A DNA stretch of 64,000 nucleotides from Sinohyriopsis cumingii (taxonomy: Eukaryota > Mollusca > Bivalvia > Unionida > Unionidae), in contig CM068827.1 of NCBI GenBank assembly GCA_028554795.2, positions 140,057,751-140,121,750 on the forward strand, in the 5' to 3' direction. Position 1 is the stretch's first letter. Every line of letters begins with the position of its first letter. The notes beneath the pieces are model-generated. The model was not told the origin of the DNA. It searched no databases and saw only the letters and a program-made list of their open reading frames with translations. The position numbers and the translations under genes are program-made. Below are positions 796 to 48,200 of the stretch, in pieces.

Positions 796-935
796 CACCG
801 TGTGAAGGATACCCTTGACTCTTGGCTGAAAGTGCAGGCAGCCTGGCTGTACCTGGAACCGATCTTTGGGTCTGAAGATATTCGCAACCAGATCCCAAAA
901 GAGGGACAGATGTTTGTGGAGGTTGACAACCACTG
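796..935 (+). CDS. DNAH3: DNAH3 exon 1 of window: linker (DHC_N2)
   Basis: This exon encodes residues 1-46 plus two bases of Trp47 and ends in phase 2. The segment [18 protein letters not shown] is a strongly conserved block of the dynein linker, the mechanical element that swings across the AAA ring. The donor is CACTG/GTAAGC at 935/936. The start at 796 follows TTTCCACAG. An alternative acceptor ending at 780 would add five residues in the same frame, but these fit the family less well. The 3' end of the exon and its donor are duplicated 83 bp downstream. Confidence 0.88.
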
Positions 936-3900
936 GTAAGCAAAGCATTTTCTATATTTTTATGTCATCACATTTGGAAAAATGTGACTATGATAACAGC
1001 TGAGGTTGACAACCACTAGTAAGAAAAGCATTTTCTTTTTTGTTATCTCATCGCTTTTGACAAAGTGTGAATATGAAAAGTCATCTACACATGTATGCAT
1101 GCACACGTGACTGTGTATATGTGTGTTTTTTTAATGTAGCTTAAACAATTTTCCAGTCATATCACTACAATGTCTGCAATGTGGCAGTTTATAACGATGT
1201 CTAGCACAAGGGCATCATGCCGCAGACATGTAGCATCATGTCCCGCCTAGTCACATTATCCTGGCACCATTCCACCCAGTCCTAACACTAACCTCTTAAT
1301 GCTGAGTGACAAGCAAGGCAGCTGCTCATACCAATATTTAATAAAAATGGTATTGGTATGACTTACTTGGCGTTTGAACCCGCAACCTCCTGCATCTGAG
1401 GTAGTCACTCTAACCACTTAGGCCACTGGAGCAGTTACCATGTCTATACATGTGTGTACATACGACCATGTATATATATGTATGTACATGTGACTATATG
1501 TATGAATGTAAAATATTGAACAACTGGTACGCCATTTGAATTAGAGATTTTAAATCTTAAATCATGATTGGGGGTGGGTGTTAAGGTGTGGTCATGGTTA
1601 TAAAAATTTTTATCAACCCACCTGGTTGAGCTTGGGGAATAGGTGTGTTTAGACTGGACAGAAAATTAATAAAAAACTGAGGACAACATTGGGACTGACC
1701 TGTTCTGGTTTGTATTAGCTCTCAGTCCTACTTGATCTAACAAGATATAGAAAACAATGTAAATCATTAATTTGGTGTCACTTAAAGTGCAGAAAGAAGC
1801 TGCACTTTCTTGGCAGTTGTGAACTTCAATTTTGTTTTTGTTGCTAAAATGTTTTTATTTTACATATTAATTACATTAAAGTGCAGCTTATTTCTTCTTA
1901 GTGACTATATACAGGTGATGCAGAATTTACGCCAATTTGATTATGTGATTTCATTTTAACACTATTTATAATGAAGAAATAAAATTCATTTTTTGCCAAT
2001 TTGTTCACTTTCATACCCTCGATATAATCATGTGCCATGATTTACACACAGCTTGTGCATATTTGATTTATGCCAATTTGGTTTTATGCCAATTTGGACT
2101 TATGCCATAATCTCAGGAATGCATCTATAATGTAAATCAGGCATCAACTATACTTTTATTTTATTTTAGTTTACAAATTATGAATAAGCTCAATCAGTTT
2201 AATTGAATCAAATTTTAAATAATAACATTATGTGCATATTTTGATTCATTTAGTGTTTGCTTGCAATTACATTCAAATCCAGGTCAAGGTTTCTAATTTT
2301 AAATAAAAATGTTTTCTTGTTGCTATGTGCAGGAAGTTGATAATGATGAATGCAGTGAAGAACACAGAAGCAATGGTGGTTATATCTCAGGATCAGATGC
2401 TGGAAAAATTGCAACACTCTGAGGTAAGATTGTCATACCCACATTTGCCTGTGTATAATGTATTCCATGATCTGTCATGTATATAATGTATTCCATGATC
2501 TGTCATGTGTATAATGTATTCCATGATGTGTCATGTGTATAATGTATTCCATGATCTGTAATGTGTATAATGTATTCCATGATCTGTGTAAAATGTATTC
2601 TATGATGTGTCATGTGTATAATGTATTCCATGATCTGTCATGTGTATAATGTATTCCATGATCTGTATATATATTCCTGATCTGTCATGTGTATCATGTA
2701 TTCCATGATCTGTCATGTGTATAATGTATTCCATGATCTGTGTAAAATGTATTCTATGATGTGTCATGTGTATAATGTATTCCATGATCTGTCATGTGTA
2801 TAATGTATTTCATGATCTGTGTATATATTCCTGATCTATCATGTGTATAATGTATTCCATGATCTGTGTATAATGTATTCCATGATCTGTGTATAATGTA
2901 TTCCATGATGTGTCATGTGTATAATGTATTCCATGATGTGTCATGTGTATAATGTATTCCATGATATGTCATGTGTATAATGTATTTCATGATCTGTGTA
3001 TATATTCCTGATCTATCATGTGTATAATATATTCCATGATCTGTGTATAATGTATTCCATGATCTGTGTATAATGTATTCCATGATTTTTCATGTGAATA
3101 ATATATTCCATGATCTGTCAGAACAAATTTTAAGCCTCCAAGCTATCCCTGTGTTTTATAAAAGTCTAAAAACCTCTATATTTTTTAATATATACTTTTA
3201 TCCTACACTGTTTCCCAAATATCTATAATATACAAATATTTTGGCTGTGAGAAGCACATGCCAATTTTTATGATAAATGTAATTTTGATTAAAATGATAA
3301 AAAGGCTATAGAATGATTAATCCTGATGGATTTGCTCAATACAGGATAGAATAGAAGTAGCAGTAATGAATTTTTCATAATGAGATTTTAAAATATATCA
3401 GTATGAAAAAATTTGATGTCACCACAATAGTGATTAAAGTGGTATTATCCATGTGTTGATTTCATCTCTGGAACTACTTTTTGTTCACATGAATGAAAAA
3501 TATCTGCTCTCATATATAGTTCCATATTTAGGCTTAATTTTTCTTCTCTCCCTTTCTCTCTCTCCACTAGGATAGAGAGATCTTAATATATGCTAACACT
3601 GTACATTTATGCAAGCAATGACAAGGTACCCTCAAAATATTATTATAATCAAACTCCAAACACAACAAGTCAGTTTCAAGTATTGATTTATTTATAATAG
3701 TTGTCTACATCAGTTGCAAACTCCCATTGATCACACTTACTTGGCCTGTTTTAATTCAACATTCAGTGTCACCCAAACTTATTACACACTTCAGATAATA
3801 CAGTTTCTTAGAGCAAATTTGGATTGAATAGAATACCAAGAATTGTTTCATTTGCAATTTTTACTCGCATCATACAGATAATCTTGTTTGAAAATGTTGG

Positions 3901-9900: not shown

Positions 9901-12900
9901 TCCAGGACCATTACACCAGCTGATGCTAAGGGGCTGGTGGAAAAGTGGCTTCTACAGGTTTGTGTGCAAAGGATTTTATATGGGTTTTTATTAGAACTGA
10001 AATTTATTGAGTAAAATTGTGATTTCATTTAGTTTGACTGAGAGCTATCTTATTGAACTATACGACACATGTCACTAGCAGCAAGTAGCACGTTGTATTG
10101 TACAACAAGTTCAAAAGTTTATGATTCTTTGTTTCGTACTGTACATGTGATTGCATTTTGATAAGGTTTATCACTGACTTCTCATAAATTTATTAACTAG
10201 TTTACAATAGAGTTCTGTTTGCTGTTTTGTTTGAACCTACATGTCCGTCAGTCTTTTTGGTGAATGGCCTGGAATGGGTAAATAATAATAAATTAATGAT
10301 CATAATGATAATGAAAAATGAAAAAGTGTTATTTAGAAAAGTGCTGAATAAAAATTATTTATTTTAGCTATTTATCATTAGTAGATAGCCCTTACAATTT
10401 TAGCTCTGAGTTGTTTAAGTGGTCTCCCCTGAGTTGTTGTACAGGAGAATTGTTTTTTTTATAATTTCTCAAGAGATATCAAGCAAGTCTAATAAAGCTA
10501 AATAATTGTAATATTTCATGTTAGTTACTTCTTTAGAGGAGTGTTCCTAATTGGTTATTTTTTTATGCAGTGGAGTGAAATTGGAGGTTTTTGTTATTAA
10601 TTTCTGGATCAATATTTCGGCCATACGTTCCCAGATTTTGAAATATTACTAGCTGGGTCTGTTGAGATAACACTGGCCCACGATTTCTGCACCTGCTGCT
10701 AGATTTGGACAAATGTCGAAGTTATGCTTTTTTCCCCCAAGGTTGACTCAGTTTGTGAGATACTTTGACCGGACTGAATTTGATCAAAGAAATAAAATGA
10801 TGAAAACACAAACCAGGAATCTGAGTACAGAACTAATTAGTAACTAGTAATTAGTAACAAGTAATTTGTTTTTACACTGGAAATTGGGCTTTGAGATTAT
10901 TGCTATTTTTGTAAATCATGTAGAAAATCTATCCCCCTTTCTGCATCATTTAAAAGATAATTTGTTACTTTTCTGGCTGTAACATTTTACTACATGTTGA
11001 AAATCTGCCCCTTTATGGCATCATTTGAAAGATTTATTGCTTTTACTTCATCCTTTACATGTGGCTCAGTTATGAACTGGCTCTTTAATAATATAGAATC
11101 ATTATATAGCAAACATATTGCAGTGGAGACATTGTATTATAATACAAAGAAATTTTTTGGTTTAACACTTATTTGGTTTTAAACAGAAATTCAGGTCTCC
11201 TTCCTTACAGCACCTGTCATTATTAGGTAATTAGGTAATGTCACTGCCATGTTATAAGCCCACTTTAAAAATGTAAGTTAAACATATTTATTCTTTTCAA
11301 TATGTATTAACTTAGAGATTTGTGAAACTGTCTGTTTCACATTTGGGATTTACAAAACATGTTGCCATAAACTGCCTTTTTTCTGATTAGTCAGTTTTGT
11401 TGAAAAAAGTGAAAATCATTAAATCATTATTTGACTATATCCCCAGGTTGAAGAGACAATGAAAGTGAGTCTGAAAGAGGTGACCATGAAGGCTATTAAG
11501 GCATACACTCAGACTGAACGACACAACTGGGTCACTCAGTGGCCAGGTCAGGTGGTTCTTGCAGCCTCTCAAGTCCACTGGACAACAGAGGTTACTCAGG
11601 TAGTGTCTTCATGAACAGCATATAAGTTACTTTCTTTGTAAGAAATTAAAAAGTTTTAGTGTTTTAATTGGTAAAATACATAGTATCAGTAAAAGTTTAA
11701 ATCGCACTAGTGAATATTCATTGATATTAATCAATTTATACAAAGCATTATTTACACTGGCACTAGTGAATATTCATTGATATTAATCACTTTATACAAA
11801 GCATTGTTTACACTAGCACTAGTGACTATTCATTGGCAATAATCATTTTAATACAAAGCATTGTTTACACTAGCACTAGTGACTATTCATTGGCAATAAT
11901 CATTTTAATACAAAGCATTGTTTACACTGGCACTAGTGAATATTCAGTGATATTAATCACTTTCATACAAAGCATTGTTTGCACTAGCACTAGTGACTAT
12001 TCATTGGCAATAATCAGTCAAATACAAAGCATTGTTTACACTGGCACTAGTGATTATTCATTGGCAATAATCATTCTAATACAAATCATTGTTTACACTG
12101 GCACTAGTGAATATTCAGTGATATTAATCACTTTCATACAAAGCATTGTTTACACTGGCACTAGTGAATATTCATTGATATTAATCACTTTATACAAAGC
12201 ATTGTTTGCACTAGCACAAGTGACTATTCATTGGCAATAATCATTCTAATACAAAGCATTATTTACACTGGCACTAGTGACTTTTCATTGGCAATAATCA
12301 TTCTAATACAAAAGCATTATTTACACTGGCACTAGTGAATTTTCATTGGCAATAATCATTCTAATACAAAGCATTATTTACACTGGCACTAGTGACTTTT
12401 CATTGGCAATAATCATTCTAATACAGAACATTGTTTACACTAGCACTAGTGAATATTCATTGGCAATAATCATTCTAATACAAAGCATTGTTTACACTAG
12501 CACTAGTGAATATTCATTGGCAATGATCATTCTAATACAAAGCATTGTTTACACTAGCACTAGTGAATATTCATTGGCAATAATCATTCTAATACAAAGC
12601 ATTATTTACACTGGCACTAGTGAATATTCATTGGCAATAATCATTCTAATACAAAGCATTGTTTACGCTGGCACTAGTGAATATTCATTGGCAATAATCA
12701 TTCTAATACAAAGCATTGTTTACACTAGCACTAGTGAATATTCACTGGCAATAATCATTCTAATACAGAACATTGTTTACACTAGCACTAGTGAATATTC
12801 ACTGGCAATAATCATTCTAATACAAAGCATTGTTTACACTGGCACTAGTGAATATTCATTGGCAATGATCATTCTAATACAAAGCATTGTTTACACTAGC

Positions 12901-14908
12901 ACTAGTGAATATTCATTGGCAATAATAATTCTAATACAAAGCATTGTTTACACTAGCACTAGTAAATATTCATCAGTATTAATCACTTTCATCCAATATT
13001 AATCATGCTGGTACAAAGCATTTTTTACAGGACATGCATTGAAACAGACCAGATTATACAAGCCAGTGTATTTGCATCTTGTTGTGAACATCCAATCCAC
13101 AGTTGTATTTAAAAGCAGAAACAATGATTTAATTAAAGCAACCTCATTTAGAGTGATCACACAAACTGATTTACTTTAATCCTTGGAGTTGGAACTATCC
13201 AGGTTTTGCTTTAATTGTAGTTTAAAACTCATCGTCTACTTGATTTTATCCAACCTTTGCCTAACTATTTGACATTATTTATTGAAAAAGTTCATTTTCT
13301 TATGAAACTGAAAATAGATACCTTTCTGTTAGACTCCTTAGCTTTTGACATCTTCAAAAGGCCTTCAACAAAGTAATTACATCAGGACTGCAGTCACATG
13401 ATCAACTTAAGTGTTGATCACTTGACAGAATTCTTCTGTACAAAGGTGGGCATTCCAGTCTGGAATCATGGTTCAATACTGGTTCCTCCTTTATGATTGC
13501 CATAACTTCCCTTGTTTAGCACCTTAAGGAATTATTCTCTCTACCACATACTCTGATGTTATCCCAAGAAAAGGTATGCCCTAATTATTTGCAGTGTTCA
13601 CCAACTGCTGTCAGGGAATCTCTTTTCATGTATAAGTATTCTTTAATTCTCGTTTCAAGGCTGTTTTCTCATCATCTACCATTTTCAGGTGTTGACACAT
13701 CTATTAACATATGCCTTTGACTTATGATATCTAACCATGCTTATATTACAATGGTAGCCTTTCATGGTATTAGTAAGTTTATATGTAACAATAGATGTGA
13801 CAGAAATGACTGAGGGCTGTTCCATTTAAACATACATGGTACCCTGGGAAGGCAGTTTTTAAAAAATGTATCCCAGGGTCCTTTGATTTCACAAAGTTCA
13901 TATTAAAATGATAAGACCATTATAAATTGCATCTATGGGTGAGTACCCCAGATTAAAAGTGCCTTCACTGGGTCCCATGTGTGTTTTAATGGAACAGCCC
14001 TGATCAGGTCTGGACAGATCAGGATATTTCCAGAATTTGGTCATGAGTTTTTCATAAACCCAATTTTTAGCATGCAGATAGGCAAAAACAACTATTAACA
14101 AATTGACATTTTACTAATATTAAAATATGTCAGTCATCTCATTAAACCAGTACTTTCACAGAAACATGTTGCCATTCATACTCTTATTATATGTACCACA
14201 AGTATTTTTGGCATTTCTTAAAAGGTCTTTGCTGGATTATATTGGTGGCAATCATTATCACTGTTGAACTTAACGCTTAGGAGATGATGTAATGTTACTT
14301 GATCCAGGCTTTCTCTGGAGTCAGCCTGAATTTTCCTCAGAATGAGAGATGTCCTTCTTAGTTCTTAGTGTCTGCATTGGAATGTGGCAGTGTCAGTACA
14401 ACTTTCTTTAGTTCACCAAAAGTTTACATTGTTTCCTGCCTGTGGGTAGATTCAGATCCAGAACTGCTCAGATTGATACCGTGTGGGTCTAATGTTGTTT
14501 TAATGTCAGTAAGATTCTTCACATGATGCACAAACATGTGTATTATTCGATCACACTCTTTGTGACTTAAAACCAAATTTGATGATAAATTTATTGTCAT
14601 CATTATCATCACATCACCACTCTTTAATAATGACAATGAAATTCAGAAACTGACTATCACTGACTATTATTATAGATGAAGACAATGATTCCATTCATCC
14701 CTGGCATTACTGATTACAATGGCAGTTAGTGACATGCACTTTAGTCTGGTTTACATTTATATTTAGAAAAGGATTCAGTCAAGATCAGTGGTGATGACAC
14801 CAGTCTTTATGATGAAGTTGTTCGAAGAATTTTCCAGTGCATATTTTACATAAAATTTGTGTTCATGTTCTGCAAATGGTCACTCATGACATTGAGTTTG
14901 TATAATAA

Positions 14909-14941
<33 letters not shown>

Positions 14942-17900: not shown

Positions 17901-20900
17901 CTGCTACCGTTACTTCAGTGAAAGTGGAGGGGCAATAGGCTGCAGTTTTGCTTACCTCATATTCTCCTGTGTCCTTTTTAGAGCTACAGATGCATTGCCT
18001 GGTGCAGTAGGCAATAACACAGTTGCTTAATTTGGGGCAGTATCTGCTTGTATGTCCATCTCACACCTGCTTAGATAATTTTGGGGAATATCCTCCTATT
18101 TATTGGAAGCCTAGTGGGTGTAAGACCCACATACATGTCTGAGCATGGCTGTCAAGCCTGTGAGTCTGGGCACATGGGGTTTGACTGGATCTTAATGACC
18201 ACTTCCATCATACCTTAATGCAGATTGATGTCATCCAACCAGCCCATCCAGTCATCTGGTCAACTCTCCTTAATACTCAGTGAATCTAGATTAGTACAGT
18301 GGAACCTATCTTGAAAGACCACCCCTTCTGCCAAAACATAATGGTCTCTCATGACAAGTGGTCTCTCATAGCAGGTCATAATACAATATAATCAACAAAT
18401 CTGTACACAGAGAACCTGGTCTCACAAGACAGGTGGTCTCTCATAGCAGTGGTCTCTCAAGGCAGGTTTTACTGTACCACGTACAGACTTATTGGGTCAA
18501 GGAACATGGACAAATATCCGGATCTTACTGATAGGTCCATCCCCTATTTTACCAATCCTTTTGCTGGTACTGGAATCCACAGTCTCACATTTCTGCTGAC
18601 CATTCATCTGGAAAGCCAGCCATATATACTGGTACAGATCCATCATGTGCATTCGGCTACTCATATGTTTATTGGTATGGTATACATACAGGGAGGAATG
18701 ATGCTAATGCCTCCAGGTTGTTTTACATTGACATGGAAGTAAAGCCTGACAAGTTTAACCTACACAGTGAGTATCAAGATAAAAACATACTCAGATCCAA
18801 CAGGGGAGAGAACTGAGTTTAGCTTTAAGTCTATAGTGGTTTCCTCTTGCTGAATGCCCTTACTACTTATGGTCACTTAGGTCTGCAAGGTCAAGGTCAG
18901 TAGATGAGCAGTCTTGGGAATTAAAGAAATTACAGATCGTCTGTCAAGCGAAATATGCAGTCCAGGAAGTTTGAAGAGTCTCATTGCAGAGTCAGTTGAC
19001 CTAGCCATTTGTCTTGTTGGTTCTGGACTTGCTTGGATTCCTTTCATACCGTGCATCGAGCCTTAGACAGCAATATTGCAGCTGTGAAAATGACGGCTCC
19101 TTTATTCTATAAAATTGACAAAAATGGTATTTAATATTGTAAACATGTCATCAATATTGGGCTTAGCATGATTAGTTATTTTTCAACTTCTGAAAAAGTC
19201 AGATAATAATTATGCCTGGGAGTCAGCATCTTGAAATGCAGAAGTCACATCCGTCACATCATTCTGTACCAAATACTTTGGTTGTCTTTGCCAACTCACA
19301 TTTGGTGCAATCAGATGCATGTGTCACAGATATTAATAGACTGACTCCAAAACTGATGCTTCTGCTGGGGTATATATCATTCCTCAAATCAGACCAAAAC
19401 TGTGTTGAAGAGACATTTTGAGCATGCTGGATGACAGTTTATGCATCGCAGTTAATGTATCATTGAATTTCACATTTATTCTCTTTTTCAGATTCAGTGA
19501 GTCCTCAAAATAGTAAGATTGAGTTATTAAATTCAAATAGTTCTGCAGATGGTTTCTATCCAGAGCAGATTTCTGTAAATGTGCAAACTTCCAATCCTTT
19601 TACCGCCAGATCACTTCAGTATTCTGTTTCCCCTCACATACAACAAAATCAGTCTATTAATCAAGAATCTATTACCCTAACTGGGATTCTCCCACCTGAA
19701 AATGGGCTGACTAAGGAAACCATTTGAACATATGGCTTTTTCACTGCATCACAAAAAGCCTTTCATTTTGTGCCTCCAATCCATGTTTTCACATAGACAA
19801 AATAATATGTATTCAGCATTTTTTCAGTTTTCTGACTTGTCTGAATACTGCACAATGTGTTACAAACATCATGGCACTTTGTTGACCTAACCATTATGTT
19901 ATAGTGGGGTCTGACTTGTCTGAATACTGCATAGTGTTTTACAAACATGATGGCACTTTGTTGACTTTGTTGACCTAACCATTATGTTATAGTGGGATCA
20001 GACATGTCTGAATACTGCACAGTGTGTTACAAACTTCATGGTACTTTGTCTACCCAACCATCATGTTATAGTGGGATTTCACTGTATTTGTTATTTTAGT
20101 GACTCTTTGTAAGGCTGCACAATGTCATCTCAAGAATTTTATTAATTATCATAATTAACAAATTCAAAGTATATATTTTAGTTCCTAACATTCATTTATC
20201 TTTAATAAAATATTCAATGTTTATAGTAAAATGAAGCTTTCTTTTCTATACTTTATTTTAAACATTATTGTGATATTGTCCTGTCATTTAAGCCCGAGAT
20301 GTGGTGAGCAATTTGTTGAAGCAGAAGATTGCCAATCCCATGGACTTCTCCTGGATCAGTCAACTACGTTATTATTTTGAGAATGACACTGTTTTGGTCC
20401 GCATGATTACAACGACAGTGCAGTATGCATATGAATATCTGGGCAATACTGGGAGACTTGTTATCACACCTCTGACTGATAGGTGCTACAGGTCAGGTTT
20501 AGTTTTTTGTCATTGTGTCTCTGACAGGTGCTACAGCTCAATTTTTTGTTATCACACCTCTGACAGACAGGGCAACAGGTCAGCTTTTTGTTATCACACC
20601 TCTGACAGACAGGGCAACAGGTCAGTTTTTTGTTATCACACCTCTGACAGACAGTGCTACAGGTCAGTTTTTTGTTATCACACCTCTGACAGACAGGTGC
20701 TACAGGTCAGTTTTGGCTTGATTGTGGAGTTTGAAAAATTTCTGAAAACATATTTGAAAAGATGTTGCCAGGCTGTGGGATTGTGGGAATATGCCAGAAA
20801 TGATTGAGAGTCTTGTGACTTTTAAAACCCAGTTGGGATCAGAGGGGTATATTGAATTGATCACTTGATCAGGCATATAGGAAACTTCTACAGTGATTAG

Positions 20901-26900: not shown

Positions 26901-29900
26901 TAAGGCTATTCATGTATCTTCCCATGGTAATGGTTTTTCTTCTTTGTATAATCCAGACAAAACCTTGATTTACAAGCCATGTATTAAGCCTATTTCTTGC
27001 TGCAGGTGTTGTCTGTGATAGCTCAGCAAGTTCAGACAATTCAGAGAGCCATAGCAGAACAGGTGAAGACATTTGTGTTTGAGGGAACAGAGATTTCTCT
27101 CGACCCAACATGTACCATTTTTATCACCATGAATCCTGGCTATGCTGGGAGAGCCGAACTTCCAGACAACCTGAAGGTAATTTTTCATGCAATGAGATCA
27201 GTTATATTATAAGCAATATGTGATGTTCACCAGGTTGAAATATTTGTGGGAATGTAATGAAAGATTTTTATTTTTAAAGTGTAGTATGTATGATTGTTAT
27301 TTTAAAATCATCACCAAAACCTAGATATATTTTTCGGTCTGAACAGCCAGACTGCCAGATTTATTCAAGCTTGAGAAAGTTCACAATTTTACTCAGATTT
27401 GCTTCTTTCTTTTAAGGTAGGAATGCATCAACACCATTGTATAGCTTATCAACCATAACATCAACACCACTGTATAGCTTATCAGCCACAACATAAACAC
27501 CATTGTATAGCTTATCAGCCACAACATAAACACCATTGTATAGCTTATCAGCCACAACATAAACACCATTGTATAGCTTATCAGCCACAACATCAACACT
27601 ATTATGCAGTTTATCAGCCACAATATCATCATCACTGTATATTTTGTCAGGCATAATATCAACACCATTGTCCACTTTATCAGCCACAATATCAACACTA
27701 GCTGTAAACCTGGTGCTAAATTTAGTTTAAGTTAAATCAATTGCATTGTATTTAATGGCAAGTCAAAGAAGTCTATATTACAGTTGCAGTCCCATCCATC
27801 TCTGTTGTGTTCTTTTTGTAGCTTGTTTAAATATCATTGTCCATCCATTAAAGAGCTTTTATTTTCCACCTTCAGCTATCAGTTTGCATGTATTCATGCT
27901 GTTTCATGGCTAGCGGTTTCCGCTGAGATTTCTGATTTTCCCAGTTCAAAGGTGACTTGCTACATCTTTTTTTTTAAATTGATGTAGAAAAACATAGTTT
28001 CACTTGTTGACAGCCCTGTGTGTACAGAAAAAATTGGGTCTCATTGCTTGTATAAGGATCATTTACATCTGCTTATGTTGCTGATGTACATAATAATAGT
28101 CATGGATTACATTGTTATTGTTTATTTTAAAAGGTGCTGTTCCGAACAGTTGCTATGATGATTCCAGACTATGCCATGATAGCTGAAATTTCTCTCTACT
28201 CCATGGGATTTGTGAATGCTCGGAGTCTATCAACCAAAATTGTAGAAACTTACAGGCTGTGCTCTGAGCAGCTGTCTTCCCAGCACCATTATGACTATGG
28301 TATGAGAGCTGTCAAATCAGTACTGACAGCTGCAGGTAATCTCAAGATCAAGTACGCCAAACAGTCTGAAGATGTCCTGGTCCTTAGGTCCATTAATGAT
28401 GTCAACTTGCCAAAGGTGAGCAGAGGTTAAGAAGAAAAAGATTTGAGCAGAGGCTGAGAGGAAAAAGATCTGAATTTTATTTTCTTCAGTCTTTTACCCG
28501 CCCCCACCCCAGTTTGTCAGTGGGGTCAGATAAAGATGTTCTGTTCTTTTTTTAAATGTCAGTCTTTACAGAGTTGTTCAGGAGATATGTACTTTTTGTT
28601 GGGGTTTTTTGGTGGTTAAACTTCCTGTTGATAGAGAGGATAATGGAAATATAGTTAGAATAGTTTCAAGGGTTGTAGCATTTGTTCATGGTCATTAATT
28701 CCTTTTTCTACAATGTTCTTATATTAACAATGTCTGTTTTTATAAATCTTGTTTGGTTTCCCCTTAAATGCCTGTGAAAAGTTAGGTTAGGACATGGTAA
28801 AATTGAAAATTTAATAATTACAATTTTCCCTGAGATTTTGTTTTGTCCAAAGAAATGTCATTTTGTATAATAGTTACTCTTTGTTACACAATTATTGCAG
28901 TATTATTTCTTTTTTGTTTTATAGTTTTTATCCCACGACATTCCATTGTTTGAGGGAATCATCTCTGACTTGTTCCCAGGTGTTGTGTTACCCAAACCTG
29001 ACTATGGGGACCTGGAAACAGCTTTGGTCAGGAATATTGAGAAACAAAATCTTCAGGCCATACCCTGGTTCATAGAAAAAATTATACAGGTATACAAGCC
29101 ATGACATGGTTGATAGGGAAAATTATACAGGTACACAAGTCATATCCTGGTTGTTTGGAAAATTATACAGGTACACAATCCATACCCTGGTTGTTAGGGA
29201 AAATTATATAGGTACACAAGTAATACATTGGTTCACTGAGAAAATTATACAGTTACATGAACCATACCCTGGTTCAGAAAAAATAATATAGATACAAAAG
29301 CCATACCCTGTTCAAAGGAAAATTATACAGGTACAGAAGTTATAAAATGGCTCACAGTGAACATTATACAGGTACACAAGTCATACACTGGTTCATAGAA
29401 AAAATTATACAAGTACACGTCATAACATGGCTCACATGAATATTTTACAGGTACACAAACCATACCCTAGTTCATAGGAAATGTATACAGGTACACATGT
29501 TATAACATGGTTTACAGTGAATATTATACAGGTAAACATGCCATACACTGGTTCATAGAAAAAATTATACAGGTACACAAGTCACGCACTGATTCACAGA
29601 GAAAGTTATAGAAGTACAAAGGCATATCATGATTCACAGATTCATTACACAGGTACAAGCCAACCCTAGTAAACAAAAAATTGTACGGATACACAAGCAT
29701 ACCTGGGTTCAGAGAGAAAATAATACAGGTATATAATCCATACTCTTTTTGACAGAAAATTACACAGGTACACAAATCATACCCAATGTTATTGATGTAA
29801 ATAACTTTTTGCCTTTTTTTGGTTTGAATAAAGCATGACAAGATTTGTTTTGAAGCTTGACAAGTCATTAAAAATATGAAAGTTTATGTGTGTATTTTTT

Positions 29901-31830
29901 GAAAAATTTGATTCTGACTTTTCTTGTGATATTCAGTTTTATATTGGGGCCTTCATTGTTTTGCAATAATTTGCATGCTGGACACTGTTACCTTGCATCT
30001 GAACTGGCATTCTGTTTAAAGTGATTTAGACCAAAGGGTTAGGGGATATGGCAGTAGTGATTCCCATCTCTCCATCGATGAGTTTGTTTCTGCAATATAT
30101 TTAGTTTTGCTGTGGTCTTCATTTTACCAATATTTATATGTTCCATACCATGGGAAGAGGTCGCATAAGCCTAATCATTTTGGGGCTTTCAAGATCATTG
30201 GACCTTTTAAATTGGAATTTTTCTTTTGGCTTGGTAAGTCCATTTTCATTGGTCAAATGTTTTTTGTTGTTGGTCTACACTTGGGCAGAGACAGCTCACT
30301 ATTGACTATGAGACTGAGAAATTCAAGGTCAAGGTCACTGGAGTGGATATTGTAGTTTGTTTGGTTTCTTCTTGATAACTTGGGTTTCTTGGATCCAATA
30401 TTCATCAGACTTCATAGGTAGTCTACATTTAGGCAGATTGTCAGGCCAAGAAACTAAAGGTCAAGGTCACCTGATATAAAACTAGAATGTGGGTTCCACA
30501 TGATGAATACATTTAACTCCATTTTCCCCATGTTGAAATTTTACAAACTTCTTACTAGATTACAGTTCCCTATTGAATATGTGATCAATAGATCAGAGGT
30601 CAAGAATGCTGGACTTGACTGAATTCTTGGTTTCTACATAATAACTCAAATTATATGGACACAATTTTCATTAAATGTAATGGGTATACAGTGGGACAAC
30701 AGCTCCTAATCAGTTTTTGAGTTGATAGGCCTAAGATCAAAATTGTTCACACTGAAATTGTAGTTTTTATTACAGACACACATACAGCATGAAGAGCTTT
30801 GCATTTTTTTGGAGTGATCAAAAATTAAAACCTCAGTGGTTTATGCATAGTGATATTAGATCACACCATTACAAATTTAGGTATTTAAGGCAAAATTCAT
30901 TTCATTTTACTTTTGTAATACCTTTGGTCTTGTTGGTGATCAGTAATTCTTCTGATGGCTAGTTTTGCAGATTGTATTGGCCATGTTCAATAGAAATTTG
31001 ATAACATGAATCACTTGAAATATTCATTATTACTGGAAGGATTTGCTTAGCTTCACTGAAGAACATTTTCTTGTCAACAACCTCCAGAAACTGAAACAGA
31101 TTTGAACCAAAGTCTTGGGCCTGTGATCCTTTGAGTTTTCAAAAGCTCAATGTTTATTCCTCAATGTATAAATCTCTTTCAGATTTATGATATGATCATG
31201 GTGCGACATGGTCTCATGATTGTTGGGGACCCTCTTGGAGGGAAGACGTCAGCATTTAAGGTTCTGGCAGAGGCCCTTAAGGATCTTCATGCTGAGAAAC
31301 TCATGGAAGAAAATGCTGTATGTCAGTTTCTGTCTCTCAAGTATAATCTCACTTTTGCTGTCTCTCTCCCTTCTAAACTACCTTTCTACTTGTGTATGTA
31401 TCTGTTTATTAACATACCTTTACATCATTTATCTCACTGTCTTATCCAAATCATCCAACAGAGTGTATAGTACATTAGTTTGAGAGAGTAACTGGTCTTG
31501 TGTATATAAAGACCTAGTTCAGTTTAATTTTACACTGGTTTTTGGCCATTGTTTAACTGAAACTTTTGGTAATGCATTTGAAACCAAGGTTTCTTCAACA
31601 GCACCATATTAGCATGGACATCTGTGTGGTATAGAAAAGATTTTAGTACACACACACACAAAATCTCCAATACATGCATAGTTCTCAATTTGGAAAAAGA
31701 AGATATAACTTGTTACTTTTAAGTACATAGTTACACTGAATTTTAAAGTAGACAAATAAAACTTTTCTAAATTGTAGCTGGGGAAAAACTAGACAAAAGG
31801 TGGGTTTTGTATAATAATTTGATAGAAATG

Positions 31831-31893
<63 letters not shown>

Positions 31894-33204
31894 CAATTAT
31901 TTTTGTTGCAGTTGTACATCATACAGTAAATAAATTCAGAAACATGAGTGCTAATGTATATTTATATATTTATGCTTTTTTGAGGAAGCAAGATGTGTGT
32001 AAGAAGATACGAGTTCTTTCTTGTAATTGTTATCACTTTCTCATTTTCCTCTGCTTTGTTTCTTTATTTCCCGTATTTTTCATCTGTAAAATATAAATAT
32101 CCCCTAATGTACGTAGTAAATTATTCATACAGTAATCATAATCATATTGCTGATAGGTACTTGGTACACCTCTAGTGTAACTTTGAATTTGTGTATATTT
32201 TGTTTCATGTAACCTGTATGCTTGCTACTAATATTATGTTTGTAAACCATGAACTCAAAGCCCATAATCTTGGCACTGTTTGTAAACCATGAACTCAAGG
32301 CCCATGGTCTTGGCACTGTTTCATTGCTTGGCATTTAAAAATAATACACATTTCTGCAAAGCATACATATTTCTGAAGAAAATAAATCTCTCTTCTGTGA
32401 TAGCTTTGCATGAAAATTATGATAATTCAAGAGGAAAAAAGTATCATCATCATGTGAAATTTCTGTTTCTAGGTCGACTACGTTATCATCAACCCTAAAG
32501 CTGTAACCATGGGACAGTTGTATGGACGGTTTGACCCTGTTTCTCATGAGTGGACTGATGGTAAGTTTACTGTTGTGTTGATCCAGTATTTAAGTTTAGA
32601 TTTTGGCTTCTGTCACTTCTCATTCCATATTGTCCAAAAAAAGGGTATGAGACCAGACTGCTGTCTAATTTTAATTATGAGACCACATTGTCCAAAAAAA
32701 GGGTATGAGACCAGACTGCTGTCTAATTTTAATTATGAGACCACATTGTTCAGAAAAAGGTAATACCTTGAGCAATGCAAGGAATGTAAGGTTCTTTAAA
32801 CTCAAACAATTTTTATATCTCCATTGTATTGTTATGCCCCCCACTGCAATAACTGGGGTGGGGCATGTTGTTTTTCAAATTTCCCTTCTCCCTGGACATT
32901 CTATAGCATGATAGTATGAAGGTTAGTGAACTTAGAGCTCTGAAATTTTACATTTCATCATGGTCATAAATATTTGAACTGATTAGATTAATATTTATGA
33001 CTAGTAACAACCACTTGTGGTAGACAAGCGAAGTTTGTTGTGAATGTTTATATACATATGTAGATGACCTGATTAGATTTTCATGTTGCTATAGCTACTT
33101 TTCACATTTTTATTCATTTTTAAATTTTGTTGGTCTAAGAAGTTTTTTGGATATGTTTTGTACAAATACAAATCTATTTATTTTTACTATTCCATTGAGT
33201 CAAG

Positions 33205-33239
<35 letters not shown>

Positions 33240-39200: not shown

Positions 39201-42200
39201 TCATCTGCAAACAAATCTGTATTTGTGGATTCATTATTTAATAGAAGATCATTTTACTGCACTTAATCAACCATATTTTGATTAATGATGAAAAGAACTT
39301 TTACGAATTCATAAGAATGACTGCTATGAATTTATAAAAATGACTGCTATGAATTCATAAGAATGACTGCTATGAATTTATAAAAATGACTGCTACGAAT
39401 TCATAAGAATGACTGCTATGAGTTCATAAAAATGACTGCTCTGAATTCATAAGAATGACTGCTATGAATTCATAAGAATGACTGCTATGAATTTATAAAA
39501 ATAAATGTTACGAATTCATAAAAACAACTCTTATGAATTCATAAAAATAGATGCTATGAATTCATAAAAATAACTGTTTTCAAGCATTCAGATGTAGTAA
39601 GACATTGTGCTTTGTTCATCTGTGCAGATGTGGTATGATCTATATGGACCCACTACAGCTAGGATGGCAGCCATTGGTCAAGTCCTGGATGCAGACATCC
39701 ATCCCAGAAAAACTGACCAATGAACAAAAGGAGACCATAGAGGTAAAAAGAACTTACATTACTCAGAGTCTCTCATGGAGCAGCCAAGAATGAGACATAG
39801 CTGCATATTTTGCTGGCATTATCATCTTCAGTAGTTTATTAAATTTTGTGTTTCTAGGTTTTTAAAAGTCATGGACTATACTATACACCATAGTGAGGAT
39901 TAAAAACAAACCGTGATCGTGGAACACCAAATTAATATCCTGATATATTGAGTAATTGTCCTCCATGTAAATTATGTATTTTTGTTGTGTATTAATGTCA
40001 CCTAGATGACTCCTATACTTTATAATTAGTGGTGATAATGCATTAATTATCTTTTCAAATGTTCTCAGATAATTTCAGTAACATCAGTTTTAATGTCCTT
40101 GGCAAATTATGTAGTATAAGAATGGAACAAACAATCCTTCAGAGATGAGCTGCTGTTGTGTCAGTTAAGATAAGAATTCTTTATTTTAAGACTACATAGT
40201 CCATACATCTAAATTAAAATATAGATATAAAGTAAAACATTATAAACATAAAAGATATATATATCATACATACAAGCATAAAGATACATTAACAACAATG
40301 GACTGTGCCCTGCATCGTTAAGAATGAAACGAAGTAGCACAATTAAAGAGTAATTTGTTCCATCTACTAATAATATGTGAATTTAAATGAATGTCATAGT
40401 TCCAAAGAGATTTCAATATGCAGTTCTTACTATTAGATATTCTTGTCATCATTGAGAATACATACTTTCTCATTACTTCATCAAAACTCCATGATGACAT
40501 TGCATTGTTATATAACATTGATATATAATACACTCAGTGTCCATCATGACATTGTATTGTTATATAACATTCATACATAATACACTCAGTGTCCATCATG
40601 ACATAGCATTGTTATACAACATTCATACATAATACACTCAGTGTCCATCATGACATTGTATTGTTATATAACATTGATACATAATACACTCAGTGTCCAT
40701 TGTGACATTGTATTGTTATATAACATTGATACATCATACACCCAGTGTCTATCATGACATTGCATTGCTATATAAGATTGATACATAATACACTCAGTGT
40801 CCATCCTGACATTGCATTGTCATATAACATTGATACATAATACACTCAGTGTCCATCATGACATTGCATTGTTATATAAGATTGATACATAATACACTCA
40901 GTGTCCATCCTGACATTGTATTGTTATATAACATTCATACATAATACACTCAGTGTCCATTACTCAGTGTTCATCATGACATTGCATTGTTCTATAACAC
41001 TGATACATAATACACTCAGTGTCCATCATGACATTGTATTGTTATATAACATTGATACATAATACACTCAGTGTCAATCATGACATTGCATTGTTATATA
41101 ACATTGATATATAATACACTCAGTGTCCATCATGACATTGTATTGTTATATAACATTGATACATAATAAACTCAGTGTCTATCATGACATTGTATTTTTA
41201 TATAACATTGATACATAATACACTCAGTGTCTATCATGACATTACATTGTTATATAAGATTGATACATAATACACTCAGTGTCCATCATGACATTACATT
41301 GTTATATAAGATTGATACATAATACACTCAGTGTCCATCATGACATTACATTGTTATATAAGATTGATACATAATACACTCAGTGTCAGTCATGACATTA
41401 CATTGTTATATAAGATTGATACATAATACACTCAGTGTCCATCATGACATTGCATTGTTATATAAGATTGATACATAATACACTCAGTGTCCATCATGAC
41501 ATTGTATTGTTATATAAGATTGATACTTAATACACTCAGTGTCCATCATGACATTACATTGTTATATAACATTGATACATAATACACTCAGTGTCCATCA
41601 TGACATTGCATTGTTATATAACATTGATACATAATACACTCAGTGTCAGTCATGACATTGCATTGTTATATAAGATTGATACATAATACACTCAGTGTCC
41701 ATCATGACATTACATTGTTATATAACATTGATATATAATACACTCAGTGTCAGTCATGACATTGCATTGTTATATAAGATTGATATATAATGCACTCAGT
41801 GTCCATCATGACATTGCATTGTTATATAACATTGATACATAATACACTCAGTGTCCATCATGACATTGTATTGTTATATAACATTGATATATAATACACT
41901 CAGTGTCCATCATGACATTGTATTGTTATATAACATTGATATATAATACACTCAGTGTCCATTACTCAGTGTCCATCATGACGTTGCATTGTTATATGAC
42001 ATTGATACACTCAGTGTCAGTCATGACATTGCATTATTATATAACATTGATACATAATACACTCAGTGTCCATCATGACATTGCATTGTTATATAGCATT
42101 GATGCATAATACACTCAGTGTCCATCATGACATTGTATTGTTATATAACATTGATATATAATACACTCAGTGTCCATCATGACATTGTATTGTTATATAA

Positions 42201-45200
42201 CATTGATATATAATACACTCAGTGTCCATTACTCAGTGTCCATCATGACGTTGCATTGTTATATGACATTGGTACACTCAGTGTCAGTCATGACATTGTA
42301 TTGTTATATAACATTGATATATAATACACTCATTGTCCATCATGACATTGTATTGTTATATAACATTGATACATAATACACTCAGTGTCAGTCATGACAT
42401 TGCATTGTTCATAACATTGATATATTATACACTCATTGTCCATCATGACATTGCATTGTTATATAATATTGATATATAATACACTCAGTGTCCATCATGA
42501 CATTACATTGTTATATAACATTGGTACATAATACACTCAGTGTCAGTCATGACATTGCATTGTTATATAACATTGATACATAATACACTCAGTGTCTATC
42601 ATGACACTGCATTGTTATATAGCATTGATACATAATACACTCATTGTCCATCATGACATTGCATTGTTATATAACATTGATACATAATACACTCAGTGTC
42701 TATCATGACATTGCATTGTTATATAAGATTGATATATAATGCACTCAGTGTCCATCATGACATTGCATTGTTATATAACATTGATACATAATACACTCAG
42801 TGTCCATCATGACATTGTATTGTTATATAACATTGATATATAATACACTCAGTGTCCATCATGACATTGTATTGTTATATAACATTGATATATAATACAC
42901 TCAGTGTCCATTACTCAGTGTCCATCATGACGTTGCATTGTTATATGACATTGATACACTCAGTGTCAGTCATGACATTGCATTATTATATAACATTGAT
43001 ACATAATACACTCAGTGTGTATCATGACATTGCATTGTTATATACGATTGATACATAATACACTCACTGTCCATCATGACATTGTATTATTATATAACAT
43101 TGGTACATAATACACTCAGTGTCCATCATGACATTGTATTGTTATATAACATTGATATATAATACACTCAGTGTCCATCATGACATTGTATTGTTATATA
43201 ACATTGATATATAATACACTCAGCGTTCATCATGACATTGTATTGTTATATAACATTGATACATAATACACTCAGCGTTCATCATGACATTGTATTGTTA
43301 TATAACATTGATATATAATACACTCAGCGTTCATCATGACATTGTATTCTTATATAACATTGATATATAATACACTCAGCGTTCATCATGACATTGTATT
43401 GTTATATAACATTGATACATAATACACTCAGTGTTCATCATGACATTACATTGTTATATAACATTGATATATAATACACTCAGTGTTCATCATGACATTA
43501 CATTGTTAAATAACATTGATATATAATACACTCAGTGTCCATTACTCAGTGTTCATCATGACATTACATTGTTATATAACATTGATATATAATACACGCA
43601 GTGTCCATTACTCAGCGTTCATCATGACATTGTATTATTATATAACATTGATACATAATACACTCAGTGTCCATCATGACATTGTATTGTTATATAACAT
43701 TGATATATAATACACTCAGTGTCCATCATGACATTGTATTGTTATATAACATTGATACATAATACACTCAGTGTCCATCATGACATTGTATTGTTATATA
43801 ACATTGATATATAATACACTCATTGTCCATCATGACATTGCATTGTTATATAGCATTGATATATAATACACTCAGTGTCCATCATGACATTGTATTGTTA
43901 TATAACATTGATATATAATACACTCAGTGTCCATCATGACATTGTATTGTTATATAACATTGATACATAATACACTCAGTGTCCATCATGACATTGTATT
44001 GTTATATAACATTGATATATAATACACTCAGTGTCCATCATGACATTGTATTATTATATAACATTGATACATAATACACTCAGTGTCCATCATGACATTG
44101 TATTGTTATATAACATTGATATATAATACACTCAGTGTCCATCATGACATTGTATTGTTATATAACATTGATACATAATACACTCAGTGTCCATCATGAC
44201 ATTGTATTGTTATATAACATTGATATATAATACACTCAGTGTCCATCATGACATTGTATTGTTATATAACATTGATACATAATACACTCAGTGTCCATCA
44301 TGACATTGTATTGTTATATAACATTGATACATAATACACTCAGTGTCCATCATGACATTGTATTGTTATATAGCATTGATATATAATACACTCAGTGTCC
44401 ATCATGACATTGTATTGTTATATAACATTGATAGATAATACACTCAGTGTCCATCATGACATTGTATTGTTATATAGCATTGATATATAATACACTCAGT
44501 GTCCATCATGACATTGTATTGTTATATAACATTGATATATAATACACTCAGTGTCCATCATGACATTGTATTGTTATATAACATTGATACATAATACACT
44601 CAGTGTCCATCATGACATTGTATTGTTATATAACATTGATATATAATACACTCAGTGTCCATCATGACATTGTATTATTATATAACATTGATACATAATA
44701 CACTCAGTGTCCATCATGACATTGTATTGTTATATAACATTGATATATAATACACTCAGTGTCCATCATGACATTGTATTGTTATATAACATTGATACAT
44801 AATACACTCAGTGTCCATCATGACATTGTATTGTTATATAACATTGATATATAATACACTCAGTGTCCATCATGACATTGTATTATTATATAACATTGAT
44901 ACATAATACACTCAGTGTCCATCATGACATTGTATTGTTATATAACATTGATATATAATACACTCAGTGTCCATCATGACATTGTATTGTTATATAACAT
45001 TGATATATAATACACTCAGTGTCCATCATGACATTGTATTGTTATATAACATTGATATATAATACACTCAGTGTTCATCATGACATTACATTGTTATATA
45101 ACATTGATATATAATACACTCAGTGTCCATTACTCAGTGTTCATCATGACATTACATTGTTATATAACATTGATATATAATACACGCAGTGTCCATTACT

Positions 45201-48200
45201 CAGCGTTCATCATGACATTGTATTGTTATATAACATTCATATATAATACACTCAGTGTCCATCATGACATTGTATTGTTATATAACATTGATATATAATA
45301 CACTCAGTGTCCATCATGACATTGTATTGTTATATAACATTGATATATAATACACTCAGTGTCCATCATGACATTGTATTGTTATATAACTGATATATAC
45401 TATATTTCATGTAATATTTTGTACAAAAAAATATGTAAAATAAATAATTGTCATATTGTGGTAATGACCATGTATGAAAAGTAAAGAGATCATGATCTAC
45501 AGAACACATGACACTCGACAACGTACAGAACTTATGTACAAATCTGGTCTCATTCTGCTCTCAAATCAAGAATCTGTTTTCTAATGAGAGAGAGAGAATA
45601 ATCGTTATTGTTCAGTTACCTGTCAGTTGTGTTATTTCTTATGTAAACTATACAAAGGCACTGCTCTGGTGGCCTAGTGCATAGAGTGTCCGCCTTGGAA
45701 GTGGGAGGTCGTGGGTTCATGAGTCATGCCAAAGACTTACAAAAATGGTACTAACTTACAAAAATGGTACTAACAGATGCCTTGCTTGGCACTCAGCATT
45801 AAGAGGTTAGTGTTAGGACTGGTCGGCCTGGTGTCAGGATAATATGACTGGGTGAGACATCATGCTACATGTCTATGGCATGTTGCCCCAATGCTAGACA
45901 TCACTATATACTGCCACACTGCAGACATTGATATATAATACACTCAGTGTCCATCATGACATTGCATCGTTACATAACTGATATATAATACACTCAGTTT
46001 CCATCACGACATTGCATTGTTACATAACTGATATATATAATACACTCAGTTTCCTCCATGACATTGCATTGTTACATAACATTTATGTATGCTACACTCA
46101 TTGTCCATGCACGATTACAGCTAATGTTTGAGTGGTTGCTGCCACCTTGTCTGAACTTCGTGGGGAAGTACTGTAAACACCTTTTGACCTGTCACCCCAT
46201 GCACCTGACTGTCAGTATGCTGAGATTATATTCCTGTCTCCTTGAGGATGTCAAGTGAGTGGTTCTTTTCGATAATTTTGTTTATTTTACCTCATGAAAG
46301 TAATAGTGTCAGTGATTGGTGCATATAATGTCTCTGTCAGGGAACAAAAAAAGATAGGTTTCCTTCATATAGTTTTGTCTCCATCATGTAATTGAGTATG
46401 ACAGGATTTTATCTTCTTCATGTGACACGTTTCCCAGTCTTGATTGATTCATTACAATAAACAATTAATGCCCTTGTTTTGGGGGTAGATATGAAAATTT
46501 GTTCACCCTCATGGTACATGACTTGCCTTGAGTGAACAAATCTTCATATTTCACTCTTACAAGGGCAGTAAATGCGTATTGTTAAATAATATTCCAATTC
46601 TTTTTGTCATAACCTATGTCCTAAAATTGTTTTTGACCCTGACGTGATACATAGAAATATCATTAGCAACATCTTTTAGTGGTTCAAACGTATATATAGT
46701 TGTGTCATAAATTTAATTTCTGGTTTTTAATTTGACATTAAATCTATTGAATAATACAATATTTGTCATAATGGCAAGCAGCTCTCAGCATATGTTGAAT
46801 TTGAAGTTGTTTTTTAAATGTTATATCACATTTGTTCCTTTATTTCTGTCAGCATCATACCCTTCCTCTGCCAAGGAGTCCTATATTTACAGCTTGTTGT
46901 TGTTGTTGGTATTATTATTGTTCAAAAAGCATCACAAATGGTATTCAATACTACAAAGTAAAAAAAATGGTACTCTGTACCGAAAAATTTATCTCTCCAA
47001 ACATACAGAAAATGGTTAAGGAGAGCTCTTTGTACATGTGCCTCAGTAAGTTTATACCATTCTTATAACCACTAATGTACACACTATGCTTTCTAAATGT
47101 CAAAAGTTCACAGCTTCTGTTATGTAAATATTCGATACCTGCGAAGAGCAGCCAGAAGTAGGAATAACTCTTCAGGGTTACCTCCCTTGAGCATGCGCAT
47201 GCTGCTATTGTTTTCATCTTATTTTGCAATCACACAGTACAATTTGTTTTGGTAATAATGATGAATTATCCTTCAGGAGAAAAAAGAAAATTTTTAAATA
47301 AAATTTTGAAAATAAATTTATTGACTGGAAATAAGCTGAGAGGATGATGGCTCTACTTATTTGACAACAATAGAGCTTTAACATTGAGGGATTGACTTTT
47401 TGAGGGCGAGTTGAATGCATACCATCCACATGAATGGGGAAAAGTGTTGTATGGAACTATCAGAGTGTGTGCTGTTTTTAACCATTAAAGATCATGGTTC
47501 AGTATGAAATGTAACTGATAACTTTATCTGATTTTACATGTTACTGATTTCAGAAATGAAAAATTGCAAATAAAAACATAAGATGGATTTATTTTATAAT
47601 ATCTGAATGTGAAACATTTAATATGATGGCAGGAAAATTGGTGATGAAGATGATGAGGAAGATATTTTTGAAGAGGAGTTGGTTGAAGTTGAAGAAGGAA
47701 TTACCCCTCCACCTCAGAGTGTCACAGACCAAAAAATCATAGAGGAACGAACCAACATGATTATCAGCTATTTTTTCTTCTCCATGGTTTGGTCTGTAGG
47801 TGCCACACTTGACTCCACCTCAAGAATAAAATTTGACGAGTTTTTCAGGAATTTATGTGATGCAGATGGAACTACAGCGAAATCGAATCAGAAGTAAGTA
47901 AAACCCAAACAACTCGTATGATTTTGCCATAGGTCTTATGAAACCCAAACAACTCATATGAATTTGCCGTAAGTCTTATAAAACCCAAACAAGCAATCTT
48001 GTCATACATGCATGTGCATGATTTCAGGAAACTTTCAGATATATTTTGGAAATTCTTTATTTACTTCCATATAATACAGATGCAGCTGATGATATCATCT
48101 TAGATCTGCCGTTGCACAACGTGCTGGCAAAATTAATGTCAGATGTACTTTTTTTCACTTTAAATTTAAAGCGAACAGTGTAGACTTGGATCTTCCAGCA

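Follow-up and report, generated by a model that had tools for sequence, protein, structure and literature searches.

Are 5′ splice junctions special sites for the birth of tandem repeats? The question is raised by a DNAH3-like gene of the bivalve Sinohyriopsis cumingii, in which three exons end inside such repeats. Part of a report on amphioxus (PMC3087553) describes comparable arrays, termed mirages, in Adh3 and in the globin genes BflGb6 and BflGb9, where an exon-intron boundary is repeated in tandem, in the manner of a minisatellite, next to the authentic boundary. The window, i.e. the whole 64,000-nucleotide stretch analyzed here, was examined together with a sample of exon borders from elsewhere in the same genome, which appears to be repeat-rich (2.9 Gb).

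Junction-spanning arrays in the window

Twenty exons of a predicted dynein heavy chain gene (cilia motor) were mapped within the window. Spliced together, they give a frame that is open throughout (992 aa). The best phmmer matches were 9fqr_Xx and 8j07_g3 (DNAH3; query residues 1–734 aligned), with DNAH7 and DNAH12 close behind. The match extends across the linker-AAA1-AAA2 region, which argues for a DNAH3-type protein. The entry 9fqr_Xx carries a different molecule name.

As shown in Table 1, exons 1, 7 and 12 terminate inside tandem arrays whose unit consists of the exon end plus the 5′ splice site. The window arrays were defined by TRF and exon mapping; in addition, the last 25 exonic bases of each exon were compared with the following 600 intronic bases, and a mirror test was applied at the acceptors. 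Copy-match scores of 16, 21 and 25 were obtained for exons 1, 7 and 12, respectively, while the remaining 17 donors scored 10 or less and the 20 acceptors 12 or less. In all three arrays the first unit is the exon copy and the other copies are intronic, i.e. the array is bounded on one side by the authentic junction, as in a mirage.

Table 1. Exons and tandem arrays discussed in the text (positions are those of the window; Lnnn, sampled loci outside it).
Feature	Position	Strand	Basis
Exon 1 (of window), DNAH3-like, donor CACTG/GTAAGC	796..935	+	junctions, spliced open frame, phmmer to DNAH3 chains
Tandem duplication across exon 1 donor	919..1076	+	TRF, score, copy alignment
Intronic minisatellite, start +27 after exon 2	2450..3120	+	TRF
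57-bp intronic minisatellite, start +105 after exon 5	11704..12973	+	TRF
Exon 7, donor CTACAG/GTCAGG	20293..20491	+	exon mapping
Mirage array at exon 7 donor	20458..20714	+	TRF, score, copy alignment, genome search
27-bp repeat, two copies, from intron base +2 after exon 11; exon bases absent	28417..28473	+	TRF
Exon 12, donor ATACAG/GTATAC	28925..29089	+	exon mapping
Mirage array at exon 12 donor	29058..29782 (or 29057-29775)	+	TRF, score, copy alignment, genome search
58-bp intronic repeat, start +65 after exon 14	32625..32760	+	TRF
40-bp array from intron base +6 after exon 19; exon bases absent	47899..47992	+	TRF, sequence
L025: 9 copies of 55 bp, exon bases included			TRF
L041: 4 copies of 19 bp, exon bases included			TRF
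L056: 10 copies of 56 bp, exon bases included			TRF
L079: 6 copies of 43 bp, exon bases included; DNAH3 gene of the window, outside the window			TRF
L109: exon-end copy; TRF row starts at +59			alignment alone
L102: exon-end copy; old two-copy duplication, no TRF row			alignment alone

The exon 1 array (period 83 bp, 1.9 copies) includes 17 exonic bases, and its second copy reads CTA/GTAAGA. At exon 7 (period 42 bp, 6.0 copies) the unit comprises 34 terminal exonic bases plus the donor; GT is present in four of the five post-exon copies and the remaining one has CT. The longest array, at exon 12 (period 41 bp, approximately 18 copies), repeats 32–33 terminal exonic bases plus the donor, with GT in 14 of 17 aligned copies. 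DNA searches of the genome, in which very common words are skipped, returned a single match for the exon 7 unit, its own locus, and seven matches for the first 141 bases of the exon 12 array, every one inside that array. A dispersed origin of these two units was therefore rejected.

The original prediction had listed junction duplications at exons 1, 7, 12 and 19, with a weaker case at exon 11. Those at exons 1, 7 and 12 are confirmed, with the predicted periods; according to TRF, the repeats at exons 11 and 19 contain no exon bases and were rejected as junction duplications. The proportion of introns affected, put at four or five of 20, is thus reduced to three exon-spanning donors in 20 (TRF, exon mapping and copy-match scores). 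The minisatellites predicted downstream of exons 2 and 5 are present. Besides the repeat after exon 14, TRF revealed further arrays absent from that prediction, one stopping 52 bases short of exon 17 and another 41 bases short of exon 18; a longer TRF row near exon 18 ends 13 bases before the exon.

Survey of exon borders

The survey covered a sample of exons, as distinct from a whole-genome scan. The loci were assembled in four sets: (i) 57 rows giving 30 loci, three of which, in the window's own gene, were dropped; (ii) 71 rows giving 30 loci, plus 13 more; (iii) 53 rows giving 47 loci, six being omitted (very long exons or isolated hits); and (iv) 122 rows, from the upper part of which 60 were hand-picked, some multi-stop or long-open-frame rows being passed over (40 loci in full and, for the other 20, just the donor side). 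Among the first 60 loci, 105 tblastn intervals were treated as exons (eight in own-gene loci) and, with duplicates skipped, yielded 73 donors and 70 acceptors. Later sets added 60 donors and 58 acceptors, 39 and 40, and finally 20 donors. After further duplicate removal, 210 donors and 187 acceptors were retained, 20 of each from the window. Outside the window, a script located the junctions with a splice-site matrix, on which 186 of the 210 donors, among them all nine positive cases described below, score at least 0. For the final count the flank was 200 bases, or the shorter stretch available.

A naive per-base null, by which 22% of random intronic 25-mers are copied downstream, was discarded because an exon can be only the first or the last copy of an array. 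It was replaced by the rate at which an intronic point falls inside the first copy of an array, i.e. 2.1–3.0% (TRF) or 2.2–3.0% (the same alignment test as for the junctions). Tandem arrays make up about one fifth of the intronic DNA of the sampled loci, and their density in the window (0.508 per kb) matches the 0.506 per kb of the remaining loci.

Exon-end copies were found after nine of the 210 donors (4.3%, window included), and the mirror pattern at none of the 187 acceptors (Fisher p = 0.004). This donor bias, on which the original reading is supported, persists outside the window (6/190 donors vs 0/167 acceptors, p = 0.032), where the donor-side pattern also recurs. Chance controls gave 0/210, 0/206 and 0/187. 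Before the last 20 donors joined, a looser threshold gave 10/190 donors vs 0/187 acceptors and a stricter one 6/190 vs 0/187; locus L010 (score 13) was counted only under the looser threshold.

Comparison with the background gives a different picture. With the window included, the donor rate has p = 0.03–0.19 (p = 0.03 at a background of 2.06%, 0.04 at 2.17%). Outside it, the observed 3.2% is not clearly enriched over the 2.1–3.0% expected from minisatellite density (p = 0.20–0.51). The absence of cases among the 187 acceptors has a probability of 0.003–0.02, and the upper 95% limit of the acceptor rate (2.0%) lies near the lower background estimates. Donors are thus at or slightly above background, and acceptors below it.

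The positions of array borders follow the same pattern. Within the window, six arrays start between −80 and +50 of donors vs 1.3 expected (p = 0.002), in agreement with the claim that the clustering exceeds chance, but this excess is weakened because the window was chosen for that very pattern. For 92 donors with long flanks, window included, there were 12 such starts vs 6.0 expected (p = 0.02); without the window, six vs 4.7 (p = 0.32), so that the excess is not significant there. Near 90 acceptors with long flanks, one array end was found vs 7.1 expected. Outside the window it looks likely that junction-spanning repeats are no commoner than minisatellite density predicts, the outcome named beforehand as a refutation, and the special process at donors that had been suggested is not upheld by these rates.

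Unit lengths across the nine donor cases range from about 19 to 83 bp. The six cases outside the window are all in dynein or myosin exons, and none of the 59 kinesin donors has an exon-end copy. In the window's DNAH3 gene, four of 24 donors are affected vs five of 186 elsewhere (p = 0.011), a post hoc excess that is suggestive. Three loci lie at the margins of the classification. L035 and the kinesin locus L155 have donor arrays with about 7–9 exon bases, below the exon-side threshold (that of L155 being intron-side only), and are outside the nine. Locus L044 may be a weak acceptor case, since its array runs up to the AG and some 10 exon bases are similar to the repeat unit.

Splice donors within the copies

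In the arrays tested outside the window, GT is kept in 8/8 (L025), 8/9 (L056), 5/5 (L079), 1/2 aligned (L041) and 19/21 (L035) copies, so that splice signals persist in many copies, as in mirages. In four arrays, 34%, 28%, 47% and 85% of dinucleotides are retained equally well or better. Given this ordinary rank, GT conservation was rejected as a sign of function: donors in the copies are neither purged nor specially kept. In several arrays, downstream donors score at least as high as the authentic donor, and harmless splicing is therefore not guaranteed. The unit length is not a multiple of 3 in eight of the 11 arrays considered, so the use of a downstream donor would usually shift the frame.

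Origin of the arrays and of the one-sided pattern

We consider it probable that these are mirage-type minisatellites seeded at the background rate, tolerated at donors and lost across acceptors. In an array-rich genome, a few new tandem duplications would straddle exon-intron borders by chance, the copies presumably being made by slippage or unequal exchange. At a 5′ junction, the authentic upstream donor would still adjoin the exon and be used, so that the mRNA could stay unchanged; arrays would be tolerated because this donor remains beside the exon. The further copies, inside the intron, would behave as minisatellites generally do, gaining and losing units and decaying. At a 3′ splice site, by contrast, copies upstream of the exon would place earlier acceptors first, so acceptor-spanning arrays would mostly be lost, probably through selection. 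Such loss need not be absolute, since an acceptor mirage appears in the amphioxus report (PMC3087553, in part). Other observations also run against this reading: the donor rate with the window included exceeds the lower background estimates, the concentration in the DNAH3 gene is not predicted by uniform seeding, several arrays carry the strong downstream donors noted above, and on the acceptor side there are the possible case L044 and an upper rate limit close to the lower background estimates.

The donor/acceptor asymmetry, the clustering of array starts with the window included, the nine positive donors and the cases in the DNAH3 gene would all be accommodated by a donor-directed process (R-loop damage, breaks at AGGT or motif-aided slippage) that copies 5′ junctions more often than other sites. 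However, without the discovery window both the donor rate and the number of array starts fall to near expectation, kinesin donors have no cases, and a deficit at acceptors could by itself produce the asymmetry, for which loss at acceptors is a better explanation than attraction to donors. R-loop or slippage mechanisms may still act at donors, but such a donor-directed process is unlikely. A hotspot confined to the DNAH3 gene or its chromosome region fits the 4/24 donors there, including L079, an independent fourth case outside the window; three of the four nevertheless come from the window that raised the question, whose array density is that of other loci, and we find such instability quite improbable. 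A small chance is left for a broader reading in which, at least in this gene, some property of transcription or of the donor motif causes minisatellites to be seeded at 5′ junctions above the genomic background, and in which the resulting tandem donors could contribute to alternative splicing or to the formation of introns.

Retention of tandem donors to regulate the splicing of this motor gene might be read into the GT present in most aligned copies (e.g. exon 12, L025 and L035) and into the many downstream donors whose scores equal that of the authentic donor; set against the unremarkable rank of GT in four arrays and the usual frame shift, this function is very unlikely. The arrays could also be by-products or intermediates of intron gain through tandem duplication of exon segments that contain AGGT; a by-product of this kind was among the possibilities first raised. 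The AG/GT at unit junctions recalls a recognized route of intron gain (PMC3443670), mirages have been suggested, by those who described them in amphioxus, to give rise to new introns (PMC3087553), and boundary repeats in human genes have been tied to novel introns (PMC2812944), as stated in parts of these papers. Nevertheless, a dynein paralogue (C10, L020) has an acceptor at the position of the intron following exon 7 (codon 340, phase 2), and another (C16, L026) has a donor at that of the intron following exon 12 (after codon 622). These positions, matching in codon and phase, are common to dynein paralogues; both introns are therefore old and predate the arrays. Moreover, the copies sit in pre-existing introns and none inside exons, and the units mix an exon end with existing intron instead of being exonic segments. 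A link to intron gain is thus contradicted at exons 7 and 12 and extremely doubtful overall.

The one-sided pattern offers a way of testing how splice sites are chosen. Where many equally strong tandem donors lie behind an exon whose mRNA is still correct, the first donor would have to win, by position or through exon definition; the absence of arrays at acceptors is consistent with first-acceptor choice.

Comparison with known systems

Turri (1995) is said to have described a minisatellite supplying multiple splice donors to the transcript of the human interferon-induced gene 6-16 (G1P3/IFI6), reportedly with a 12-bp unit and several donors in use. Judging by its title, that case resembles ours in that repeats provide several splice donors; it reportedly differs from the present arrays in its short unit (about 19–83 bp here), and the copied donors here are putative. 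The original paper on amphioxus Adh3 is reportedly that of Canestro (2002).

As far as the later amphioxus report goes (PMC3087553, in part), mirage units measure 10–72 bp in Adh3 and 150–160 bp in the globin genes, many copies carry AG/GT signals, regular splicing is reportedly undisturbed, and length instability and RT-PCR are reported. The likeness lies in tandem boundary copies next to an authentic junction, many with splice signals. However, amphioxus mirages, as described there, occur at both 5′ and 3′ boundaries, whereas the exon-spanning cases found here all lie at 5′ ones (9/210 vs 0/187), with L044 as a borderline 3′ case. Mirage arrays are hereby extended to another genome, the new elements being a sampled rate (about 3–4% of donors, with matched controls) and a one-sided bias.

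In human segmental duplications, variable internal tandem repeats at exon-intron boundaries have a mean unit of 30 bp and about four copies, and 27 intron modifications were retained on inspection (PMC2812944, in part). There, too, minisatellite expansion touches exon-intron borders, but the human repeats, by the part of the account used here, were selected for altered gene structure (alternative or novel introns in recent paralogues), whereas the exons studied here are intact and the introns old. Our rate bears on the abundance of raw material for intron gain by tandem duplication. In the AGGT model, as outlined in part of PMC3443670, the duplicated segment likewise holds AG/GT; it creates an intron within an exon, whereas in the present case old introns receive the copies.

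Donor-spanning arrays in the window

Spliced at AG/GT junctions, the 20 exons of the window (C4:140057751-140121750, within a 2.9-Gb genome) encode 992 residues with no stop. A 734-residue query built from these exons gave full-length alignments to dynein axonemal heavy chain 3 and to the proteins most closely related to it.

Exons 1, 7 and 12 end inside tandem arrays, which are listed below together with other repeats. When the last 25 exonic bases were matched against the next 600 intronic bases, these exons scored 16, 21 and 25, respectively; the remaining 17 donors (5′ splice sites) scored at most 10, and the 20 acceptors (3′ splice sites) at most 12 in the mirror test. In genome searches that skipped very common words, the exon 7 array matched only itself, with no second locus, and the exon 12 query gave 7 matches, all within its own array. 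The junction-spanning duplications originally predicted at exons 1, 7, 12, 19 and (more weakly) 11 were confirmed at the first three, whereas the arrays at exons 11 and 19 begin within the intron. The interspersed repeat of the window resembles, by eye, a tRNA-derived SINE.

Tandem arrays and other repeats of the window
Feature	Window position	Unit	Exonic bases	Copies	Remarks
Exon 1 array		83 bp	17	~2	exon ends inside array
Exon 7 array		42 bp	last 34, plus donor	6	exon ends inside array
Exon 12 array		41 bp	32	~18	exon ends inside array
Interspersed repeat	1128-1400	roughly 270 bp		39 further	80-87% identity (40 scored of 5,201 candidates)
Satellite-like array	40488-45399	52/104 bp			~4.9 kb, within one intron
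Second piece	45925-46108	similar			ends near exon 18 acceptor

Exon-end copies in other genes

The check accompanying the original prediction was applied, within this genome, to a sample of exons from further dynein, myosin and kinesin genes. Six more donors with exon-end copies were identified (sampled loci L025, L041, L056, L079, L102 and L109), those of L102 and L109 by alignment, with no TRF array including the exon. Overall, such copies occur at 9/210 donors versus 0/187 acceptors (Fisher p=0.004) or, with the window left out, at 6/190 versus 0/167 (p=0.032). Reverse-complement and inner-exon controls gave 0/210, 0/206 and 0/187, and two sets of kinesin donors gave 0/39 and 0/20.

Donor arrays with only ~7-9 exonic bases were observed at a C8 dynein exon (L035; ~22 copies of 38 bp) and a C13 kinesin exon (L155; ~5 copies of 45 bp, the array being on the intron side). 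At L109, a C10 dynein exon, a 64-bp array stops just short of the acceptor, and the donor-side array has units of roughly 75-81 bp. One dynein heavy chain region is present in two copies ~73.6 kb apart on C3 (L029/L030 and L009/L019; 100% identity over 3,123 and 1,703 bases), reflecting either a very recent segmental duplication or an assembly-duplicated haplotype.

Donors and acceptors relative to minisatellite density

For arrays with a period of at least 15, the window and loci L009-L068 agree both in density (0.51 per kb) and in coverage of intronic DNA (19-21%). The chance of an intronic point falling within the first unit of an array was 2.1% (window) to 3.0% (other loci), and 2.2-3.0% by the alignment test. 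The donor rate of 4.3% (95% interval 2.0-8.0%) is ~1.4 to 2 times this chance (p=0.03-0.19) and falls to 3.2% without the window (p=0.20-0.51), so that in this sample the predicted excess over minisatellite density shows only against the lower estimates of this chance when the window is included, and is not significant without it. The acceptor rate is below the same chance (probability 0.003-0.02).

Where long flanks were available (92 donors, 90 acceptors), a positional test revealed 12 array starts at −80 to +50 of donors versus 6.0 expected (p=0.02; 6 versus 4.7 with the window removed, p=0.32), and one array end near acceptors versus 7.1 expected (p=0.006). When only intronic sequence is considered, the initial 25 bases of the intron recur downstream at 9/210 donors, and the final 25 recur upstream at 5/187 acceptors (two minisatellites and three simple repeats). 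Thus, arrays reach acceptors from the intron side but do not clearly cross them. Nearest to a crossing is L044, where the units of a minisatellite derive from the intron end and carry acceptor-like TTTCAG; this array stops precisely at the authentic acceptor (oriented position 1503), and ~10 exon bases are similar to the unit, possibly a faint acceptor mirage (minisatellite-like copying of an exon-intron boundary).

Origin and maintenance of the arrays

These data are best read as background seeding combined with one-sided tolerance: arrays would arise at the background rate, including across exon-intron borders, and those crossing a border would be tolerated at donors but mostly lost at acceptors. 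The gene of the window may also be a local hotspot, with exon-end copies at 4/24 of its donors versus 5/186 elsewhere (p=0.011), three of the four cases being those that first drew attention. The fourth, the L079 array (43-bp unit, six copies, 96% matches), probably belongs to this gene, judging only by strand and position.

A by-product of intron gain, as also proposed originally, is at odds with the age of the introns. That after exon 7 (codon 340, phase 2) coincides with the acceptor of paralogue L020, and that after exon 12 (after codon 622) with the donor of paralogue L026; being common to paralogues, both introns predate their arrays, which are not leftovers of recent intron birth.

As for selection for tandem donors, the copies often score on par with the authentic donor: as good a GT recurs at 10 sites within 760 bases downstream of exon 12 and at 9 sites within 560 bases at L056, but at none in the copies of exon 1 or L041. 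If the mRNA is normal, the first donor would therefore have to be favoured by position, its use being inferred here. In four arrays tested, GT was neither specially kept nor lost in the copies, and unit length is not a multiple of three in 8 of the 11 listed arrays; both observations fit neutral decay better than such selection.

Comparison with known systems

A human minisatellite has reportedly, by title, been the source of several donors. Within partial literature coverage, titles and abstract openings gave no donor-versus-acceptor rate for mirages or junction minisatellites. Intronic minisatellites are described in earthworm metallothionein and abalone TSSK1-like genes, with no exon-spanning unit stated in the available parts of these sources. 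Human exon-intron boundary repeats have been tied, in the part available, to alternative and novel introns (PMC2812944). The closest parallel is provided by the amphioxus Adh3 and globin genes, whose tandem repeats over exon-intron borders were named mirages; according to the accessible text, they are unstable in length, leave regular splicing unchanged and are present at both 5′ and 3′ borders (PMC3087553), whereas the exon-end copies sampled here are at 5′ borders, with L044 as a borderline 3′ case.
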